Source: Myxococcota bacterium
GTDB taxonomy: Bacteria; Myxococcota; UBA727; JAHDBA01
Assembly: GCA_020630615.1 (NCBI GenBank)
Contig: JAHDBA010000001.1
Span: 76,838-140,837 of the forward strand
Reading direction: 5' to 3'
DNA: 64,000 nt
Below are positions 6,433-17,354 of the stretch, one piece after another; the first letter of the stretch is position 1; the number at the start of each line of letters is the position of its first letter. The notes beneath the pieces were generated by a model. The model saw only the letters and a list, made by a program, of their open reading frames with translations. It was not told the DNA's origin and searched no databases. A program made the position numbers and the translations under genes.

Positions 6433-6576
6433 AGGTTAAGTGTGCTTACCTGAGAAGTGCCCGAGTTCTTTGTCGCATACAAAGTACGAAGGTGGGTGTC
6501 ATATTGACAAGGTGAGTTGATCGAAGGCTCAGGTTCGAATCTTGCGTCTCGAAGCTTCAAAGATTAGCTTTTGAAA

Positions 6577-7626
6577 ATGGGTATTCAAGTTGCTATTGTT
6601 GGAGCCACCGGGCTCGTGGGTTCTGAGCTTCGTTCCATTTTAGTCGAGCGCTCTTTTCCTATCGATACGATTGGGCTTTACGCGTCGGCAAACTCCGCGG
6701 GCCAAAGTCTCGAATTTGGTGACGACGAAGTCCATGTTGAAGAACTCCAAGCGTCGAAACTCGAGGGTTACGATCTTGTTTTTCTTGCAGGCGGTGGAGA
6801 GGCGTCGCTAGCCTGTCTCAAACATCGCTATTCAAAGAGACCCATCTTTATTGATAAAAGTAGTCGTTTCCGTCTAGAGGATGATGTTCCTCTTGTTGTG
6901 CCTGGCGTGAACTCGATTACCCGACATGATATCGGGCCCAAATCCTTGATTGCAACACCGAACTGCACGACGATTCCCTTGGTTCAATTCTTAGAATGTC
7001 TTCGCTTGTGTTCTGCGATTGATGCAGTTCATGTCACGTCGATGCAGGCAGTCTCAGGAGCCGGTAAGAGAGGGGTTGAGGTCCTCGATGCCGAGACGCG
7101 TGCCGTCTTTCAATTTAAAGATGCGGAAGAGAATGAGGTCTTTGAAAAACGAATCGCATTCAATGTTCAACCCTGGGTTTCATCCCGTTGCGACCTCGAT
7201 CATGGGCATACGGACGAAGAGCAAAAACTTCAGTATGAAACACAGAAGATATTGGGACAATCAAAACTGAAGGTGAGCGCAACATGTTCTCGGGTGCCGG
7301 TATTTCACGGTCACAGTCTATCGATTATGGTGGATTGTAACGATGAGCCCAATCTCGATGAGCTCAAAACCAAAGTTGAGGCTTTTGACGGTCTTCGATG
7401 GTTTGACCAGGGCGATGAGCGTGAATATCCAACGCTGATCGATGCTGTGGGTGCCGACGAAACATGCGTCGGCAGAGTTCGATGCGCGCCGGGAAACCCA
7501 AAACGAATCTTGGCATGGTTGGTCAGTGATAATATACGAACGGGTGCAGCATTAAATGCTGTGCGAATTGCTGAAGAAGTATTTCCGCGAGATGGTTTTG
7601 CAAGTGTTGGTGAAGACAATGAGTAA
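6577..7626 (+). CDS. asd: Aspartate-semialdehyde dehydrogenase
   Basis: 349 residues, typical length. It reduces aspartyl phosphate to aspartate semialdehyde with NADPH, the branch point to lysine, diaminopimelate, threonine and methionine. It shows the Rossmann motif VGATGLVGSEL at the start, SSRFR with PLVVPGVN, catalytic Cys130 in TPNCTTIP, the SGAGKRG loop, and the RVPVFHGHS motif with the catalytic histidine. A TTG six bases upstream of the chosen ATG is also possible; neither has a clear ribosome site. The stop overlaps the next gene (ATGAGTAA), which suggests translational coupling with the unusual surface protein that follows. Confidence 0.95.
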   Translation: MGIQVAIVGATGLVGSELRSILVERSFPIDTIGLYASANSAGQSLEFGDDEVHVEELQASKLEGYDLVFLAGGGEASLACLKHRYSKRPIFIDKSSRFRLEDDVPLVVPGVNSITRHDIGPKSLIATPNCTTIPLVQFLECLRLCSAIDAVHVTSMQAVSGAGKRGVEVLDAETRAVFQFKDAEENEVFEKRIAFNVQPWVSSRCDLDHGHTDEEQKLQYETQKILGQSKLKVSATCSRVPVFHGHSLSIMVDCNDEPNLDELKTKVEAFDGLRWFDQGDEREYPTLIDAVGADETCVGRVRCAPGNPKRILAWLVSDNIRTGAALNAVRIAEEVFPRDGFASVGEDNE

Positions 7627-9703
7627 AAACGAAAAGTATGAAGAGTATTTTAAAGGCAGCAACGATAGGACTCCAAAAAGGTATTTGAAAGCGCTGCCTT
7701 TTCAAGCTTTGGCATTTCTCTTGCTTTTCGTTTCTCCTTTGGCGGCTCAGGTAACTTTAGACGCTACCTCGGATGTGAATATTCGTTTTGGAGCCTCAGA
7801 ATGTTTAGAGCCTGAAGTATTCAATGCCACTTGGGTTTTGGACGGAGATCTTTCACAATTTTATGACACAGCATTGGTGTTCTATAGCGAAGAAGATCTA
7901 CTGGCGCCTATCGATGGGCGAGTGACATGCCCGGATTGGCAATTTCATTTACAAGGTGGACCCGGCTTTCAAGTACCAGGCTATGAAATGACCAATAGTT
8001 TTGGTGAGTCCATTGGCGCAAATCAAAATTACGAAGTCGCACTGACATCATCAGAACTTTTCGCACTCGCGCTACTTGACCCGAGTTTTGATGGCGTCTG
8101 TAGCGATGATTACGATGAAAGTTTTGGGCTTTGTCTATACATTGCAAACAACAGTGATGTCACCTACACTAATGTCCAATCGTTTGGTATTTCAGTTAAC
8201 GCAGATATGCTGGGACCGGAGGCCGCAACCATTAACTCCGTCGAAGAAAACGATGGAAGCGTCACCGTCTCAATTGCACAAGACGATGACGATCGAAGTT
8301 ATGTGATTGCAGCGATCATTGAGTGTTTTGATGACGAGGGAGTCGTCAGTGTTGCTGACGAAGAAGACCCTTCTACGGAAGATGGGAGCGTCGAGTCGAC
8401 TGTGACTGGGGCGCCAAGCACCGACTCTTTTGAAGATGACAACGATGAAAGAGAGAATGATGTTGCACCATCGTTGCTCGACTTGCCTACAATTGATGAA
8501 GAGACTTGCCCCTCAACAGGAACATGGCGAACCCAACGCTTTGAAGAAGGTGATACGCTCACCCTCGATGAACTCCAAAGCAATCAGGGATATTATGTTG
8601 TGGTCTTTGGTGAAGACGATCTAGGGAATATCGGCGAGGCTTCACAAGGCATTGTTGTTACACCCTCAATTGGTCAGTCGTACTTGGAACTCTTGTCGCA
8701 AGGATCGGTGGAGGAAAACTCGGTTTCGGCCGATGGATGCGACTGCTCGACAGGATCAACGTCGGGTTGGGTCCTTCTCGCTCTATTGGCATTGATGTGT
8801 TTACGAGTACCGCGGGGCAAAAGGTGCACTCGCCTTGCGCGAACACAATCACAATCACGTATCGGGACGCTCCTTAGTGTTGGGCTATTCGTTGTGACAA
8901 TCGCCTGGTCTGGACAAAGCGAAGCACGCCGGGGTCAAGTTGACCTCATGATTCATGGAGGGCCCTATCTGCCGAATCTCGATGAAAGTACAGGCTCTCC
9001 GAATGTTGCGGGTCGTCGCGGTCTTTACGATTGTATGTTTGGCAATCAGAACATGCCGCAAATTGGCTTTGAATCTGCATGGCACTTGGCAGACATTAAT
9101 TGGATTGGCAGCTTTAAGCTTGGCTTAGGAGTTCGCTTCGCACAAACGGATTTTTTGCGTCAAAAAGATTACTCGCGAAGCATGCCTGACACATGGAATC
9201 TAAGTTCAGGGTGTCCAAGCGAAGACGACTTTGAAGATGTGAATGAGAAAAATCGTATTTCGACACTCATGCTTGTGCCCTCTCTAACCTATTGGGCAGA
9301 CCCACTCTTGGATCGCTTCGCCATTCCTATTTTTCCATACGCACGGGTCGGGCTGAACGCTGTGAACTATTTCTTTACACGCGATGGGGAGTTTGATCGA
9401 CGCTCTTCGACGCACAAACCTTACGGTCTTCGATTTGGTTACGAATTCGCGATCGGGGCTATGTTCTCCATCGATTGGTTGGATTTGGTTTCTGCCTGGG
9501 ATTCTTACAATGGAGATCATGAGGGTTGGGCATCTCGAAAGCAAACGCGTGGATTTCAACATCTCTTTCTAAATGCAGAAGTTGTCTTTAGTGAAATATC
9601 GAATTTTTCTTCATCGGGCCTGAACTTTTCACAGCGCTTCGCTACCTCGAAAGAAGTGAAGCCGTACACCTTTAATATCGGTGTGACCTTTGAGTTTTGG
9701 TAG
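7619..9703 (+). CDS. MYXO-CTERM surface protein fused to an outer-membrane beta-barrel
   Basis: 694 residues in one uninterrupted frame. The N terminus is a signal peptide (ALPFQALAFLLLFVSPLAAQ). Residues about 45-365 form an acidic extracellular region. At residues 372-402 stands DGCDCSTGSTSGWVLLALLA followed by RVPRGKR, a full MYXO-CTERM sorting signal. Such a signal is normally the very end of a protein. Here a second basic-hydrophobic segment follows (GTLLSVGLFVVTIAWSGQSEA, about 415-435), like a second signal peptide. After it come about 255 residues rich in alternating hydrophobic strands, ending in the aromatic residues FEFW as beta-barrel proteins do. Myxobacteria have a neighbouring gene pair catalogued as the MXAN_2561 (MYXO-CTERM) and MXAN_2562 (outer-membrane barrel) families; this looks like the two joined. 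The start ATG overlaps the asd stop. Confidence 0.8.
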   Translation: MSKNEKYEEYFKGSNDRTPKRYLKALPFQALAFLLLFVSPLAAQVTLDATSDVNIRFGASECLEPEVFNATWVLDGDLSQFYDTALVFYSEEDLLAPIDGRVTCPDWQFHLQGGPGFQVPGYEMTNSFGESIGANQNYEVALTSSELFALALLDPSFDGVCSDDYDESFGLCLYIANNSDVTYTNVQSFGISVNADMLGPEAATINSVEENDGSVTVSIAQDDDDRSYVIAAIIECFDDEGVVSVADEEDPSTEDGSVESTVTGAPSTDSFEDDNDERENDVAPSLLDLPTIDEETCPSTGTWRTQRFEEGDTLTLDELQSNQGYYVVVFGEDDLGNIGEASQGIVVTPSIGQSYLELLSQGSVEENSVSADGCDCSTGSTSGWVLLALLALMCLRVPRGKRCTRLARTQSQSRIGTLLSVGLFVVTIAWSGQSEARRGQVDLMIHGGPYLPNLDESTGSPNVAGRRGLYDCMFGNQNMPQIGFESAWHLADINWIGSFKLGLGVRFAQTDFLRQKDYSRSMPDTWNLSSGCPSEDDFEDVNEKNRISTLMLVPSLTYWADPLLDRFAIPIFPYARVGLNAVNYFFTRDGEFDRRSSTHKPYGLRFGYEFAIGAMFSIDWLDLVSAWDSYNGDHEGWASRKQTRGFQHLFLNAEVVFSEISNFSSSGLNFSQRFATSKEVKPYTFNIGVTFEFW

Positions 9704-14411: not shown

Positions 14412-17354
14412 TTAGTGGAGGATCTTAAACTCAATTCGGCGATTCTTAGCTTTACCTTCAGGTGTGGCGTTTGTTGCAATCGGGCGAGTTTGACCGAAGC
14501 CATTTGAAACAAGTCGAGCTGGAGCGACACCATCTTTAATCAAGAGCTTCTTCACAGCCTGCGCACGGTCTTTTGAAAGCTTCAAATTCGCCTGTGCATT
14601 ACCATCGGTGTCGGTATGACCATCAATCTCAACTTTTGCCTCGGGGCATTGCTTAAAGGAGTCCGCAAGTGCTTGGACAAGCTTAAAGCTTTTCGCATCA
14701 ATAGCTGCTGAGCCCGTATTGAAGTTGATTTGCTCTTTCGCCAACAAATCGTCAAAAGATTTTTTGCATGCAGCTTCCGTTGCGCTCAGTTGAACTGGCT
14801 TGAACGAGAAGTTTGCCGATGCAACACGGCTCTTGATGTTGTTGTAGTTGCGATCAAGTTGAGTCTTCTTATAGCTTTCATCGTAATCACCGATCACAGA
14901 CCATTTTCCGTCTTTCAAAGTCGCACTGAACTGATCGAGGTAACGTGACGATGCAAGGATTGCATTGACATCGGTCTTCCAAGTTGCCGGAGCTCCTTCA
15001 CTTTGCGCTTTGGCACGCACGTTCCAGTTGTTCTTTGGGGCGAACTTTGCTTTTTGTTGGTTCAACCAAGTCAGGTCTGCATCGCTAGGCATATTTCCTG
15101 TCACGGAAAAATCACCGTTAGAAGCTTTAACAATCCGAGTCGTAAAAGGTCCTGTAACAACTGCATTACTTTTAGCGGGTGGCTTTGGTTGGGTTGAAGC
15201 TGCCGTACTTAGAGCAACTGCACTCCCCGCAGGCACTGCGCCGTAACCCATGGTTGCGACAACGGGTGCGATAACCAAGGCCACAACACTCATCAACTTG
15301 ATTAAGATATTCAATGCTGGGCCTGATGTGTCTTTAAAGGGGTCGCCCACAGTATCGCCGGTTACGGCAGCTTTGTGTTTGTCTGAACCTTTACCGCTAT
15401 TCTCACCTTTCGGCTCGTCTTCGATTTGTTTCTTCGCGTTATCCCAAGCACCACCAGCGTTGGACATAAAGATGGCAAGCAAAACGCCAGAAACAGTTGT
15501 ACCGGCCAAGAGGCCACCCAATAAGAGTCCAGAGCCATCTGCAAGACCGGCAGCAACAGGTGCTGCAAGCGCTAGAAGTCCCGGGGCAATCATTTCACGA
15601 ATGGAAGCTTGCGTGGAAATATCAATACATTTTGCATGGTCAGGTGTTCCTGTTCCATCGAGAATTCCAGGAATCTCTCGAAACTGACGACGAACTTCTT
15701 GAATCATGTCGTTTGCAGCACGGCCCACAGCATTCATAGCCATTGCTGAGAACACAAAAGGAAGCATCGCGCCAATGAATAGACCCACCATAACTTTCGG
15801 GTCAGTGATGTCGATCTTAATATCCGCAATCGTTGAATAGAGTCCGGATTTTTTGGCCAGTGTCGTTTGATAGGCGGTAAAAAGTGAAATAGCGGTGAGT
15901 GCAGCGGAACCAATCGCAAAACCTTTACCAATCGCTGCTGTTGTGTTTCCAACGGCATCAAGGTTGTCTGTTCGCTCACGAACTTCAGGGGGAAGTTCAG
16001 CCATTTCTGCAATACCACCAGCGTTGTCTGCGATAGGTCCAAACGCATCGACCGCAAGTTGAATACCGGTTGTTGCAAGCATACCGACAGCTGCAATCGC
16101 AATACCGTAAAGACCCGCAAAGTTGTAGGAAAGAAGAATCGCAGCACTAATCGTTACAATTGGCCACGCCGTCGATGTCATACCCACCGCAAGACCGCTA
16201 ATAATATTTGTCGCTGAACCTGTTGTCGATGCTTCAACGATATCGCCCACAGGCTTTTTGCCTTTTGCACAATAATACTCAGTTCGGTTACCGATCCAAA
16301 GTCCTGAACCCAGGCCTGAAACCATCGCTGCTACAATTCCCCAGTTTGCGTAGTCTTTTCCACCAAGCACAAAGCTCTGAGGGAGCAACGTCATTGCCGC
16401 TGCGCCACCACCAATCAATAAAATCAGTGCCGCGATATACGCACCCATGTCGAGTGCATGCTGTGCGTTGCCGCCTTCTTTGACCGACACGAAGAAAGTA
16501 CCAACAATCGACGCAAGAATACCAATGCCTGCAATAAGTAGAGGGAAGTATACAAAGCTAGTATTTGGGTTGCCTGCAACGCTAACACCAATACCCAAAA
16601 CCATCGCTGAGATAATTGCACCAATATACGATTCGAAAAGGTCAGCACCCATACCGGCAACATCGCCGACATTATCACCCACGTTGTCTGCGATTGTCGC
16701 AGGGTTACGAGGGTCATCTTCAGGAATACCCGCTTCAACTTTACCAACCAAGTCAGCACCAACATCAGCTGCTTTGGTATAAATACCACCGCCGACACGT
16801 GCAAAAAGGGCAATCGATGACGCGCCCAATGAAAATCCAGATAGAATGGCAAGTTTTTGCGACATGTCATCGGAACCGAAAAGCTGCGCCATCATAAAGA
16901 GAAGACCAAAACCAGTGATCGCAAGACCAACCACAGACATGCCCATCACGGTTCCACCCGAGAAGGAAACATCGAGTGCTTTGTTTAAACTTGTTCGAGC
17001 AGCGTTTGTGGTACGAACGTTTGCGAGTGTCGCAATGCGCATACCAAAAAAACCGGCAAGACCCGAACAAATAGCACCAATGACAAATGCACCCGCTTGG
17101 AGATAAAGACCGTCACCCTGCATGAACCCGGTGAAGCCGAGAATGACTGCAACAACAGCAACAAAAACTGCGAGCACACGATACTCACTCTTAAGAAAGG
17201 CCATTGCGCCATCCGCAATCGCATCACCCAAATGTTTCATTTTTTCGGTGCCAACGTCTTCTTTTTTAACCTTTTGCGACTTGGTCCACGCAAAAGCGAG
17301 AGCCAAAAGTCCGAAGACCCAGACGTAACTCGCGACGTTTGAAAGTATACCCAT
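14412..17354 (-). CDS. hppA: Membrane pyrophosphatase fused to BON-like and OmpA domains
   Basis: 980 residues; the usual enzyme is about 670-720. Residues 1-700 are a complete ion-pumping pyrophosphatase, which hydrolyses pyrophosphate to move sodium and/or protons across the inner membrane. Visible motifs are [43 protein letters not shown] and [10 protein letters not shown]. Ala in GNTTAA, where potassium-independent enzymes have Lys, predicts a potassium-dependent type; Glu in ADLFESY fits sodium pumping. After the last helix ([16 protein letters not shown]) comes an Ala/Pro linker (about 700-725). Two BON-like stretches follow (about 730-850, each with a GDFSVTG or GKWSVIG strand). A full OmpA-like peptidoglycan-binding domain ends the protein (about 873-980: [48 protein letters not shown]). 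Pyrophosphatase C termini face the periplasm, so the topology works. The ribosome site is a strong AAGGAG, and the frame is continuous. Confidence 0.93.

Follow-up and report, generated by a model that had tools for sequence, protein, structure and literature searches.

Does a single open reading frame that carries a MYXO-CTERM sorting tag in mid-chain, ahead of an outer membrane β-barrel, specify one working protein or two? The frame in question lies in the 64,000-nt window analyzed here (the whole stretch of DNA considered, positions 76,838–140,837 of the forward strand of contig JAHDBA010000001.1, Myxococcota bacterium assembly GCA_020630615.1). It extends from an ATG at bp 7619 to a TAG at bp 9701–9703, with 694 codons uninterrupted by a stop, and its predicted product is composed, in order, of a surface protein, a sorting tag, an internal signal peptide, and an outer membrane barrel. 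The features of this region are as follows.

6571–7626, + strand: homolog of asd (aspartate-semialdehyde dehydrogenase), a conserved upstream neighbor that is present in the loci of relatives
7619–9703, + strand: the fused frame, a putative precursor of 694 amino acids (open frame; NCBIfam matches on both halves; fusion also in relatives of the same order)
7619–7747, + strand: predicted N-terminal signal peptide, residues 1–43, ending SPLAA-Q (hydrophobic segment 31–47; reading of the sequence)
7748–8731, + strand: predicted exported Ig/FN3-like region of the MXAN_2561 type, residues 44–371 (NF045522; FN3; structure model)
8732–8746, + strand: MYXO-CTERM Cys motif DGCDC, residues 372–376 (NCBIfam; Cys kept in the fused proteins, see below)
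8759–8803, + strand: helix A of the MYXO-CTERM, residues 381–395 (hydropathy; AlphaFold helix 382–395)
8804–8857, + strand: positively charged loop RVPRGKRCTRLARTQSQSR, the Arg tail of the tag and putative n-region of the internal signal peptide (R/K excess in relatives; R402)
8861–8920, + strand: helix B, internal and signal-peptide-like, residues 415–434, ending SEA (hydropathy 415–431; AlphaFold helix 415–429; [AVSTGC]x[AG] in relatives)
8921–9700, + strand: MXAN_2562-type eight-stranded outer membrane β-barrel, residues 435–694 (NF040596; AlphaFold; Foldseek)

The ATG of the fused frame overlaps the stop region of the asd homolog (ATGAGTAA), which ends at bp 7626. Hydrophobic segments are predicted in the 694-residue protein at residues 31–47, 381–397, and 415–431 only. 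Its N-terminal part matches NCBIfam family MXAN_2561_fam (NF045522) at residues 159–394 (E 4e-9 to 9e-10; 36.4–38.5 bits, below the equivalog cut-off of 150), and its C-terminal part matches MXAN_2562_fam (NF040596) at residues 444–673 (E 6e-21 to 9e-22; 75.1–77.8 bits, below the cut-off of 100, which several relatives in the same order exceed or approach). Judged by its sequence, the N-part is a divergent relative of the MXAN_2561 family and not an equivalog. The window protein has no Pfam match, and a sequence-based look-up of solved structures returned none for it; Pfam FN3 domains were matched in the N-parts of relatives. An AlphaFold model of the full-length protein (pLDDT 63.7, weaker than the barrel model discussed below) has β domains in the N-part, helices at residues 382–395 and 415–429, and the barrel, and its structural matches are tandem Ig/FN3 chains. 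Hydropathy, NCBIfam, and AlphaFold agree with the original prediction that a signal peptide, a mid-chain MYXO-CTERM, a second hydrophobic segment, and a barrel lie in one frame, and the NCBIfam matches on both halves bear out its idea that MXAN_2561- and MXAN_2562-type genes have been joined.

The AlphaFold model of residues 435–694, built with 41 relatives, is a barrel of eight strands (pLDDT 85.8, pTM 0.83), and its best solved-fold matches by Foldseek are Ail, AlkL, OmpW, and OmpX. The barrel fold had been foreseen, with a length of about 255 residues; the fold is as expected, and the length is ~260 residues. A surface domain followed by a barrel in one chain resembles an autotransporter, in which the barrel would take its own N-part to the cell surface, but an eight-stranded Ail/OmpX-like barrel has no passenger-sized pore, two helices and a charged loop lie between the N-part and the barrel, and relatives encode the two parts in separate genes. 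An autotransporter-like function is scarcely credible on these grounds.

Relatives were sampled phylum-wide at approximately one locus for each genus, with the addition of named loci from a contig scan; each species is represented by a single genome, in many cases a draft MAG. A contig scan with the whole window protein as query gave no matches, and in the pattern scan alignments A1 and A2 were too diverse and A3 succeeded. Fused and split loci were called by searching with profiles of both halves in all six frames, and duplicates were removed. Open-frame length was rejected as a test for fusion because in high-GC genomes an incorrect frame across gene 1 frequently lacks stops. The distinct loci comprise 46 that are fused and 76 that have two genes, with the N-part followed by the barrel in both. 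Fused loci are spread over 17 family-level groups plus Kofleriaceae and Nannocystineae MAGs, and they are also found in genomes of 1.1–1.8 Mb. The barrel is present in 180 of 195 genomes, so that the module is near-universal in the phylum, and wherever the sequence reaches far enough upstream of a barrel, the N-part is either fused to it or directly adjoins it. In 84 loci from these relatives, an asd homolog lies directly upstream of the module; 33 of them are fused (a few duplicate records included) and 51 are separate. Two very small genomes of the window's order, G009 and G012 (0.5 and 0.3 Mb, respectively), have neither the barrel nor the myxosortase core, as if these had been lost together.

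The genome is a 48-contig draft, and one relative scored as two-gene, L063, resembles a frameshifted copy of a fused gene, so an assembly or sequencing error that joined two genes has to be considered. Against this, the identical fusion arrangement is present in a genome of the same family (G001) at 39% identity, in all 12 of the barrel-positive genomes of the order (the window's own counted), and in many other families, and we give an error practically no chance. The original prediction held that the fusion would be an artefact if relatives always had separate genes, the first one stopping near bp 8810; all barrel-positive relatives in the order are fused, so that reading fails.

All of the tripartite features of a MYXO-CTERM are present in the window protein, namely DGCDC, the helix at residues 381–395, and RVPRGKR, and model TIGR03901 gives a borderline match at residues 373–394 (E 7e-4 to 1.5e-3; 18.9–19.9 bits in one search and 23.4 bits in another, on either side of the cut-off of 20). 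The element is not C-terminal, and because ~290 residues come after it we refer to it as a MYXO-CTERM-like mid-chain tag. The mid-chain position given for it originally stands, and its exact limits are redrawn as DGCDC at 372–376 and an Arg/Lys stretch at 396–402. Helices A and B are linked by the charged loop, and helix B ends with TIAWSGQSEA-RRGQ. By simple rules for calling helices and sites (under which L010 remains misassigned in the final assignment), every one of the 46 fused proteins has a Cys a short way ahead of helix A, mostly in a GG-x-C or GGFCF context; R and K outnumber D and E in the loop in 45 of them; and between helix B and the barrel there is an [AVSTGC]x[AG] site, also in 45. 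R402 is invariant in a 15-row alignment. The strict form of the site, AxA, occurs in 38 of the 46 fused loci versus a mean of 23.9 and a maximum of 32 after shuffling; the window protein has SEA.

The mid-chain tag is not of one kind. It is MYXO-CTERM-like in 22 of the fused loci, and in the other 24 it is a CFI-box-CTERM (NF041770) or, in Kofleriaceae, a degenerate version of that tag; NF041770 is over its cut-off in scanned cases (for example, L061, L065, L069, L073, L076, and L117). The Cys, the loop Arg, and the pre-barrel site occupy the same alignment columns in both kinds. Many of the loci L061–L076, L117, L146, and L159–L174 have a CFI-box-CTERM in place of the MYXO-CTERM before the barrel, with the Cys at an identical position. 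This shared slot and Cys position suggest that the CFI-box, too, is a sorting tag; a literature search on the CFI-box found no paper.

If the chain were not cut in the middle, the N-part would be periplasmic, the inner membrane would hold the two helices as a hairpin, and the barrel would lie in the outer membrane, with one protein bridging the two membranes. The predicted out-in-out topology of the hairpin permits this, and a further point in its favor is that most relatives have only a short segment from helix B to the barrel. In the AlphaFold models, however, helix B ends at about residue 431, only a few residues from the start of strand 1 at about 441, and so short a connection can hardly span the periplasm. 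Moreover, the Cys and the AxA-like site, with the frequencies given above, fit cutting, and the two-gene relatives produce two separate proteins. We consider an uncut bridge unlikely and favor a chain that is cut.

The two-gene loci show what has become of the translation signals. Their two genes overlap by exactly four bases in 65 of 76 cases (ATGA in 48 and GTGA in 17), and the barrel gene start has a Shine-Dalgarno match of at least five bases in 57 of the 71 that were scored. Over the last 14 codons of gene 1, 35% of Arg codons are AGG, versus 10% in its body (p 8e-17). The Shine-Dalgarno match falls in this tail, so the codons for the tag's Arg residues serve at the same time as the ribosome-binding site for the barrel gene. 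In L081–L103, L127–L154, and other two-gene loci, the tail Arg codons AGG AGG are the Shine-Dalgarno sequence of the overlapping barrel gene. In the fused loci the AGG share in the Arg loop is not above that of the body (p 1.0).

These signals bear on whether the fusion is merely apparent, with internal re-initiation at the ATG at bp 8795 or at another start giving two proteins. That ATG is in frame within helix A and would yield an Arg-rich signal peptide, and the two-gene relatives do restart at their four-base overlap. On the other hand, both candidate internal starts in the window, this ATG included, have a Shine-Dalgarno score of zero, 16 of the 46 fused loci have no candidate in-frame start at all, only one has such a start with a site of at least five bases, and the AGG enrichment is gone. 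Re-initiation is very unlikely in our view; with its signal lost in the fused loci, the fused gene would most simply be read as one chain.

The two forms appear to have been exchanged repeatedly. On a barrel tree from a quick maximum-likelihood run with 121 rows (SH-aLRT as the sole support measure, changes counted without polarity), the fused/split state changes 9 times, 6 of them forced by starred branches, compared with a mean of 37 after shuffling; leaving out the doubtful L063 reduces the count to 8. The kind of tag (MYXO-CTERM or CFI-box) changes 6 times on the same tree. Within one genus, split L111 and fused L112 are sisters on the tree, which marks a recent switch between the two forms. 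Since the four-base overlap sets the two genes in different frames, a switch should require an insertion or deletion and not the loss of a stop codon alone. One further row, L133, whose source record bears the title Comamonas sp. KCTC 72670, is a near-identical Myxococcus-type module (terminal branch 0.003); the record is probably mislabelled or contaminated.

The host genome encodes one myxosortase-type CPBP protease (L057; 109.1 bits with NF040914, cut-off 100), whose nearest full-length model is MrtP, with a score under the MrtP cut-off. It also encodes one secretin over the GspD cut-off (474 bits), GspD being the one type II secretion system (T2SS) component covered by the search. Myxosortase is found in 190 of 195 genomes; because nearly all have it, its co-occurrence cannot separate the MYXO-CTERM from the CFI-box types. 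The genome's only other TIGR03901 match is a 3047-amino acid open frame (L059, at G000:C46:49115) with a terminal MYXO-CTERM (CSATSASDFG-helix-RRRRRS). Within the window, a 980-amino acid frame at bp 14,412–17,354 (− strand) reads, from its translation, like a membrane pyrophosphatase of the HppA type with a C-terminal OmpA-like peptidoglycan-binding domain, an unusual fusion. The protease MrtX cleaves MYXO-CTERM, its cysteines being required, E. coli included, and MYXO-CTERM lipidation and transport by the T2SS have been proposed (Guo, Haft and Wall, PMC11980579).

From these elements we are fairly confident that ORF 7619–9703 encodes a two-product precursor, whose cutting at three sites would release the anchored surface protein together with the barrel at a 1:1 ratio. 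With one signal for cutting in mid-chain and another for export behind it, the precursor probably yields two functional proteins, here and in many other Myxococcota. Signal peptidase I would remove the N-terminal signal peptide and SecA/SecYEG would export the N-part until the MYXO-CTERM helix halts transfer with its Arg tail inside. The Arg loop would then double as the n-region of the internal signal peptide, restarting export of the barrel. Myxosortase would cut after the Cys, which is probably lipidated, freeing the surface protein for passage to the cell surface by the T2SS, and signal peptidase I would cut after the AxA-like SEA, freeing the barrel for assembly by BAM and leaving a short helical hairpin as by-product. 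The output, one partner barrel for each MYXO-CTERM surface protein, would match that of the two genes with a four-base overlap in relatives. Cleavage is predicted because of the conserved Cys, the Arg loop, the AxA-like site, and the myxosortase gene in the same genome. The polyprotein arrangement proposed in the original prediction is supported in these respects, and by the presence of the fusion in many families and the case against re-initiation; the rhomboid-like protease it named gives way to a glutamic CPBP myxosortase at the first of the cuts between the two products, the second being probably the work of signal peptidase I. Against the three-cut model, the window's internal site is SEA rather than AxA, its MYXO-CTERM score is near the family cut-off, and about half of the fused proteins have a CFI-box and not a MYXO-CTERM.

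Several known systems resemble parts of this arrangement. The MXAN_2561/MXAN_2562 pair (NF045522 and NF040596) has both parts in the same order, next to asd in most loci, but in Myxococcus and its relatives it consists of two genes with a four-base overlap and a terminal MYXO-CTERM, whereas the window has one chain; a literature search on MXAN_2561/2562 found no paper. Myxococcus xanthus MXAN_5598 has an internal MYXO-CTERM, called a rare case, for which processing of the N-part has been proposed (PMC11980579). Like the window protein it has an exported part, the internal MYXO-CTERM, and then an outer membrane barrel; unlike it, MXAN_5598 has a large adhesin region and an OmpA cell-wall domain and lies in the ftsAZ region, and no recurrent family or internal signal peptide is described for it (PMC11980579). 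TraA/TraB parallels the two-gene form, with a MYXO-CTERM surface receptor and an envelope partner whose genes overlap by four bases, but the domains are unrelated (PA14/Cys-rich and OmpA) and the genes are separate (PMC3325183). By analogy with TraA/TraB and MXAN_5598, we take the N-part and the barrel to be a surface protein and its outer membrane partner. The name of midcut-by-XrtH (NF033207) denotes a cut at a mid-chain sorting signal, and the model matches the fused relative L012 weakly (E 0.006), but it is named after exosortase XrtH and has no match in the window protein up to E 1. An archaeosortase substrate has a tripartite signal that is not at its C-terminus and is processed by its own sortase (Abdul Halim 2017, cited in PMC11980579); as cited there, it differs in being archaeal, in its enzyme, and in having no outer membrane barrel.

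An internal MYXO-CTERM (MXAN_5598), midcut-by-XrtH, and the archaeal non-terminal signal are thus already known. As far as our literature searches reach, what is new is the widespread and recurrent fusion, the conserved internal signal peptide, the use of two tags in one slot, and the identity of the split form's Arg tail with a Shine-Dalgarno sequence. To our knowledge, there are few descriptions from Gram-negative bacteria of polyproteins whose cleavage products are envelope proteins sorted independently. It seems reasonably likely that the module is such a cut-and-sort polyprotein, recurring phylum-wide, in which the tag's Arg tail is the n-region of an internal signal peptide, MYXO-CTERM or CFI-box occupies the same slot with the same Cys, and the fused form has switched repeatedly with a pair of genes overlapping by four bases whose AGG AGG is a Shine-Dalgarno sequence. 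The fused module would tie a myxosortase substrate to one partner barrel, and the fused and split forms are a natural set for testing the order of cleavage; a further prediction is that the CFI-box acts in sorting as the counterpart of MYXO-CTERM.
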